Below, piece after piece: positions 29,961 to 30,116 of a DNA stretch of 64,000 nt. The position numbers and the translations under genes were made by a program. Source of the stretch: Culicoidibacter larvae (GTDB lineage Bacteria > Bacillota_I > Bacilli_A > Culicoidibacterales > Culicoidibacteraceae); assembly GCF_005771635.1 (NCBI RefSeq), contig NZ_VBWP01000003.1, positions 124,001-188,000 on the forward strand. Reading direction: 5' to 3'. The notes below the pieces were generated by a model that did not search any database, was not told where the DNA came from, and was given only the letters and a program-made list of their open reading frames with translations. Numbering within the stretch: position 1 is the stretch's first letter; each line of letters starts with the position of its first letter.

Positions 29961-30116
29961 TATTCAGTATCCGCACCGTTAGTTGCGATTACTTTTTTGC
30001 CCCGCAAGGGGACTACTTCAATGCTGCAAACAGCATTTTCGGTCGTACCAAGATTGGAACAAAAAAGATTTAAATACTATTCAGTATCCGCACCGTTAGT
30101 TGCGATTACTTTTTTG
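29961..30116 (-). repeat. Hairpin element copy A with 39-bp duplication of the glucosidase 3' end
   Basis: A 76-bp core (29992-30067) is bounded by inverted arms CTTTTTTG/CAAAAAAG and contains three hairpins in the gene's sense: CCAA-TC-TTGG, AATGCTG-TTTG-CAGCATT and CCCC-TTGC-GGGG. The last 39 bases of the GH1 gene (30078-30116) recur exactly on the far side (29961-29999), so the gene end is duplicated around the core. A second copy at the same position of another GH1 gene (47971-48101) is about 95% identical. It could be a small mobile element, a structured 3'-UTR RNA, or both; no known class is recognised. Confidence 0.75.

Follow-up and report, generated by a model that had tools for sequence, protein, structure and literature searches.

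Two GH1 genes of Culicoidibacter larvae, termed A and B here, carry a 116–117 bp insert at the same codon position near their 3′ ends. That this insert replaced the gene end is, at the level of sequence comparison, well supported by copy B together with unoccupied paralogues and orthologues. With the insert placed near the last codons and bringing a fresh gene end, the GH1 enzyme would be left intact. Both genes lie in the 64,000-nucleotide stretch of DNA that was analysed (the window), and the features concerned are collected in Table 1.

Architecture of the insert in two GH1 genes

The last 39 bases of gene A recur exactly (29961–29999 and 30078–30116, spacing 117), as the earlier note had reported, and the repeat is part of a wider match identical at 45 of 48 positions (29952–29999 against 30069–30116). 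The 3′ end of the gene reads ...GATTGGTAC AAAAAAGTAATCGCAACTAACGGTGCGGATACTGAATAG, and a 76-nt core, in full CTTTTTTGTTCCAATCTTGGTACGACCGAAAATGCTGTTTGCAGCATTGAAGTAGTCCCCTTGCGGGGCAAAAAAG, starts nine bases further on; 3′ of the core, the gene end appears again (AAAAAAGTAATCGC...GAATAA), followed by the terminator. The earlier note had read this arrangement as a tRNA-sized, 76-bp insert between duplicated ends. We draw the insert differently, as a unit of 116–117 bp that consists of a replacement gene end (X1) and a core; in A, these amount to 48 nt and 69 nt of unique sequence (29999–30067), respectively, because the closing arm of the core, CAAAAAAG, represents Lys-Lys codons of the GH1 gene itself and belongs to the second, displaced gene-end copy (X2). 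Directly downstream of the terminator of A and upstream of a metQ-like gene, the window also contains a SAM riboswitch (RF00162, 77.5 bits; 29760–29853).

Table 1. Window positions of the two GH1 genes, their inserts and associated elements
Feature	Position	Strand	Remarks
GH1 gene A	30077..31516	-	479 aa, Pfam Glyco_hydro_1
Insert A	29999..30115	-	117 bp, splits the ancestral gene end between TTGGTAC and AAAAAAG
X1 of A	30068..30115	-	gene-end copy in use, TAG stop
Core of copy A	29992..30067	-	76 nt, CTTTTTTG...CAAAAAAG, extent as in the earlier note
Arm CTTTTTTGTTCCAATC of core A	30052..30067	-	15/16 inverted copy of the gene's GATTGGTACAAAAAAG (30109–30124)
X2 of A	29951..29998	-	displaced gene-end copy, TAA stop, adjoins terminator
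Intrinsic terminator, A	29922..29954	-	15-bp stem, downstream of the displaced end
GH1 gene B	48056..49489	-	477 aa
Insert B	47985..48100	-	116 bp, insertion point TTGGTAC^AAAAAAG as in A
X1 of B	48053..48100	-	gene-end copy in use, exactly 48 nt like A
Core of copy B	47978..48052	-	75 nt, 4 substitutions and 1 indel (1 nt) relative to A
X2 of B	47937..47984	-	displaced gene-end copy, encodes KKVIASNGEDLD and stop
Intrinsic terminator, B	47882..47914	-	downstream of the displaced end

Copy B occupies another GH1 gene, 18 kb from A, at the identical codon position, and the two cores are 95% identical. The proteins encoded by A and B are only 55–56% identical; among the GH1 paralogues they form the closest pair by score, and the genes share one orientation and one contig. 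Despite differing stop positions, the stretch that runs from AAAAAAG to the core measures exactly 48 nt in each gene. A coding role for the insert was considered and rejected: copy A is in frame (117 = 3 × 39, open past TAG), and copy B is not (116 nt, with a TAA and a TAG of its own).

A displaced native gene end at copy B

For the insertion reading, copy B is the decisive piece of evidence, and a sound one. Its displaced end encodes VIASNGEDLD followed by a stop, a letter-perfect match to the ends of GH1 orthologues in several other genera; orthologues that end in this manner (KKVIASNGEDLD and stop) are found at L104, L108, L111, L115, L168, L172 and L174. Since X2 of B is identical to the orthologue ends of other genera, we regard it as the original end, now pushed downstream, and X1 of B as imported. 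Nor is the downstream end of B a decayed duplicate, as decay would not yield the canonical end of the family. Two differing gene ends, of which the native one is displaced, rule out a pure slip duplication for copy B; such a local duplication was the outcome that the earlier note had held to refute a mobile element. Copy A cannot prove import of its end because X1 and X2 of A are nearly identical, and no donor can be assigned to X1 of B, which at the DNA level resembles X1 of A no more closely than it does the ends of some other paralogues.

These ends also bear on another possibility, which we regard as very improbable: that the 76-bp core inserted like a transposon and left a long (~48-bp) target-site duplication. 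This would account for the ends of A, which agree at 44 of 48 positions and abut the core on either side, and for the imperfect terminal inverted repeats CTTTTTTG/CAAAAAAG. Against it, the ends of B agree at only 28 of 48 positions with the displaced one native and canonical rather than decayed, the right terminal repeat is host gene sequence, and a Y1-type transposase gene is absent from the genome (PF01797, 0 matches).

The insert is missing from 11 of the 13 GH1 paralogues of the genome, which have normal ends, none of them repeated downstream; several of these insert-free paralogues carry an identical TGGTACAAAAAAGT site. It is likewise missing from the closest orthologues of A (Enterococcus, ~80% identity) and of B (same order, 65%), and from all other GH1 loci examined, about 110 in total, so that the comparison of orthologous loci proposed in the earlier note finds the arrangement not to be general. 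An apparent GH1-end repeat downstream of the gene at L120 (score 18) was discarded as an AT-rich chance match. As the closest orthologues of both genes are without the insert, it is younger than the split of A and B; insertion before that split is ruled out by the much closer Enterococcus orthologues of A. From this age it follows that presence at two loci is the outcome of two events.

Folding and divergence of the core

The core described in the earlier note, with closing arms and three hairpins, is present and folds, subject to the reassignment of one arm to host codons and to competition from a second fold. It contains a strong hairpin of 7 bp (AATGCTG/CAGCATT), one of 4 bp (CCCC/GGGG) and a weak third one (CCA/TGG). 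Relative to shuffled sequences, the core folds better both as RNA (z −2.8 for A, −2.7 for B) and as single-stranded DNA (z −3.2 for A, −3.6 for B). The arm CTTTTTTGTTCCAATC has an alternative pairing partner in GGGGCAAAAAAG at the opposite end of the core; because it is also an inverted copy of the gene's GATTGGTACAAAAAAG, two mutually exclusive folds compete. About 45 nt of the core are a copy of nothing in the genome, and a 29-nt pattern drawn from it finds 2 matches in the 64-kb window against 0.00 expected by chance.

None of the 5 differences between the two cores touches a paired position of the fold (p = 0.011); in a comparison of two sequences, this placement hints at structural constraint. 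Divergence is also unevenly spread along the insert, with 13 differences in 48 positions of X1 (35 of 48 identical) against 5 in 76 of the core (Fisher p = 0.003). If the core is the functional part, X1 is expected to be the more diverged and the core differences to be unpaired, and both are seen. The contrast between X1 and core reflects either a constrained core or different donors; either would agree with a small family of elements in which the core is functional and the gene end adaptable.

One way to explain such constraint is that the core acts as a 3′-untranslated RNA structure, stabilizing or regulatory, that is under selection at two GH1 genes and whose arrival was incidental. This explanation, which we consider improbable, would fit a core that is more conserved between A and B than its surroundings and differs solely at unpaired positions, that can form either of two competing stems and outdoes shuffled sequences in folding, and that sits between stop codon and terminator at both loci. 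It leaves the displaced gene ends unaccounted for, and two sequences give no covariation evidence. Rfam 15 covariance models, with which the window was scanned, gave no match to the core at gathering score and, under relaxed thresholds, no convincing one close to copy A, and no further copy was found at other genes or in the other genomes searched.

A serious and quite possible rival is copying between paralogues by microhomology without dedicated machinery, combined with constraint on the core. The insert would have arisen once, probably at A, where the gene end was duplicated around a foreign core, and would then have been copied to B by ectopic recombination or replication template switching, by way of sequences shared at the left (ATTGGTACAAAAAAGT) and at the right (CAAAAAAGT). 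The identical stretches of 16 nt and 9 nt that lie exactly at the two borders are in keeping with this route, as are the closeness of A and B as paralogues, their common orientation and their spacing; the inverted copy of the gene's own sequence within the insert resembles a fold-back template switch, and no recombinase is linked to the insert. The divergence of the X1 sequences relative to the cores would be unexpected for one recent copying without core constraint, and simple copying of the whole insert from A to B is disfavoured because the replacement ends are less alike than the cores. Copying also leaves the origin of the core unexplained, as the genome offers no other source for it.

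Distribution of the core

A search by blastn and covariance model, the approach put forward in the earlier note, led from copy A to the second GH1 gene and to no other genome. Within its own genome, neither method found a third copy; a weak third covariance match (C3:190052), 18 kb beyond B, falls within a D-Ala-D-Ala-ligase-like gene and was dismissed as chance. Other genomes of the genus, family and order gave no match, and 395 class-level genomes (blastn) and 392 phylum-level genomes (covariance model) gave chance matches only, two of which were inspected and lie within coding sequence. The core pattern had no match across GTDB, and the core was not found in plasmids, phages or viral contigs (IMG/VR), the single viral match being a glycine-repeat coding stretch. 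In everything searched, the core is confined to one genome and two copies; given that the order is represented by only four genomes, its absence elsewhere may reflect thin sampling.

Recombinases and other duplicated 3′ ends in the genome

No recombinase is found in or near the insert, and no integrase gene inside it, the 116–117 bp being non-coding apart from the gene end. The genome encodes 6 Phage_integrase proteins, all away from the insert and none linkable to it; two look like XerC and XerD, and one adjoins restriction specificity genes. With the integrases of this genome as tblastn queries, no integrase genes were found beside GH1 genes in 80 other genomes. An occurrence of TGGTACAAAAAGGT near the XerC gene on contig 8 was rejected as the end of a topoisomerase-like zinc-finger gene with no insertion. 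Elsewhere (L128 10692–13487, and L145), repeats next to a tyrosine recombinase and to genes for type I restriction specificity probably mark an hsdS shuffling locus.

About 1.2 Mb of the genome was sampled in stretches for further 3′-end duplications. The 3′ end of a tRNA-Leu(cag) gene is duplicated over 57 bp (L130 16364–16420 and 17853–17909); the 1.4 kb inserted between the repeats includes an AAA/kinase-like gene and no recognised integrase. Another duplication, of 54 bp, affects a tRNA 3′ end (L183 409–462 and 9322–9375) and encloses an 8.9-kb element that encodes a replication-initiator-like protein and a phage integrase of 373 aa. Duplicated ends of protein genes, terminators included, number at least five (41–72 bp, 90–100% identical) and surround inserts of one or two genes. 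In the window, the terminator of metQ (NlpA lipoprotein) is repeated over 41 identical bp (26717–26757 and 28817–28857), and the M23-peptidase/FN3 gene between (26756–28711) is a single-gene insert that duplicated the flanking metQ terminator. The last codons and terminator of ppaC are repeated over 57 identical bp (L194 8015–8071 and 9228–9284; G000:C2 ~46.0–47.3 kb) around 1.2 kb with a TetR-like regulator, a small membrane protein and no recombinase. Three further duplications of gene end and terminator are 90–95% identical (L204 5723–5792/6956–7027, L204 9420–9477/12172–12229 and L132 5212–5268/7379–7435); the genes inserted at these loci comprise a glycerol-dehydrogenase-like gene, an ABC transporter with a TetR-like regulator, and an LPXTG-type surface protein. 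One of the duplicated protein-gene ends lies upstream of gldA.

Every 3′-end repeat pair is unique to its locus within the ~1.2 Mb sample, which holds no other small insert comparable to that of the GH1 genes. Judged from these arrangements, 3′-end-directed insertion appears to be a recurrent event in this genome, and this broader tendency to duplicate 3′ ends on either side of inserted genes can be tested by strain comparison. A separate 35-bp repeat occurs in at least three places, among them L196 (from 17816, spacing 285) and the region behind the GH1 gene in L029; it reads as a ribosome-binding site with a mini-ORF, MKKFFYF and stop, possibly an attenuation leader peptide.

Comparison with known systems

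The closest likeness is to integrative elements that use tyrosine recombinases (prophages, ICEs, IMEs and islands). The insert shares with them a gene 3′ end that is directly repeated at its two borders (exact over 39 bp in A and over only 15 bp in B), an element-supplied 3′ end that restores the gene, with displacement of the native end seen in B, and the precise and repeated use of one site. Unlike them, it totals 116–117 bp, has neither integrase nor cargo, targets a GH1 gene and is known in two copies. The insert may work like integrative elements at gene 3′ ends, but cargo-free. For want of an integrase, it is assigned to no named family and is placed only as a variant of 3′-end-restoring integration.

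MITEs and the small palindromic repeats of bacteria (RUP, BOX, Correia, REP) are small, hairpin-forming and non-coding and are presumed to be mobilised in trans. By this general description, they resemble the insert in size, hairpins, lack of coding capacity and presumed mobilisation in trans; the insert differs in that it lacks a target-site duplication in B, carries host-gene coding sequence and is present in two copies. Its terminal inverted repeats match no resident transposon, blastn and covariance model having found no further copy of the core in the genome. Elements derived from IS200/IS605 likewise have two hairpins just inside their ends, and the insert could conceivably have entered 3′ of a short fixed motif (GGTAC) with no duplication; unlike these elements, it carries a gene end and resides in a genome without a Y1 transposase. 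Inspection by eye of the insert borders found no GTTRRRY/RYYYAAC pair of the kind that forms R′ and R″ of integron cassette attC sites. Template-switch (quasi-palindrome) insertions, as treated in PMC8794818 and PMC7202029, contain an inverted copy of neighbouring sequence, as the GH1 insert does; in contrast to these, ~45 nt of its core are copied from nowhere in the genome, and one insert occurs at two loci.

A tentative model for the origin of the insert

The explanation that we tentatively favour is a minute, non-autonomous, gene-end-replacing insert of 116–117 bp that integrates in the Campbell manner and is moved in trans. It would have entered the two GH1 genes after the Trp-Tyr codons, at TTGGTAC^AAAAAAG, where the empty site would have read TTGGTACAAAAAAG directly continued by X2. 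The insert would bring a substitute for the last 12–15 codons and the stop, followed by the conserved, hairpin-rich core of ~69 nt; the host gene would remain whole, closing in new sequence, with its original 3′ end pushed downstream, beside its terminator. The exchange itself may have been of the Campbell type, with the common stretch CAAAAAAGTTATTGC (15 bp in B, longer in A) as the crossover region. A recombinase encoded outside the insert would have catalysed it in trans and would have recognised the hairpin core.

The observed basis of the favoured model is the architecture, the existence of copy B, the unoccupied sites in paralogues and orthologues, and the native character of the end displaced in B. 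Support comes from the equal insertion codon, the equal 48-nt X1 and the 95% identical core in paralogues that are 55–56% identical. Other 3′-end duplications in this genome, possibly of a different mechanism, also count in its favour. Weighing against it, a duplex circle of 117 bp would be strained; only two copies exist, 18 kb apart in the closest paralogues, which also fits local copying; no recombinase is linked; and the core is without a homologue in all searches. Of the site-specific integration proposed in the earlier note, the gene-end-replacing insertion thus stands on copy B and the empty sites, and the tie to a recombinase does not. That a dedicated recombinase moved the insert we infer with reserve, because the core occurs in no other genome, no recombinase is tied to it and the insert is redrawn as 116–117 bp; such mobility seems likely enough to merit testing. 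A broader proposition, which we consider unlikely though worth stating, is that cargo-less elements of ~117 bp, each a substitute gene 3′ end plus a folded recombination core with a one-codon target in GH1 genes, are moved in trans by a recombinase of the host or of another element and form a new class of minimal mobile DNA.

If mobile, the insert would rank among the smallest elements that protect their target by supplying a new gene end, and would mark a lower bound on what site-specific integration requires. If it is not, these genes would offer a clean natural swap of a C-terminus by an event of less than 120 bp, with the old end still readable alongside.
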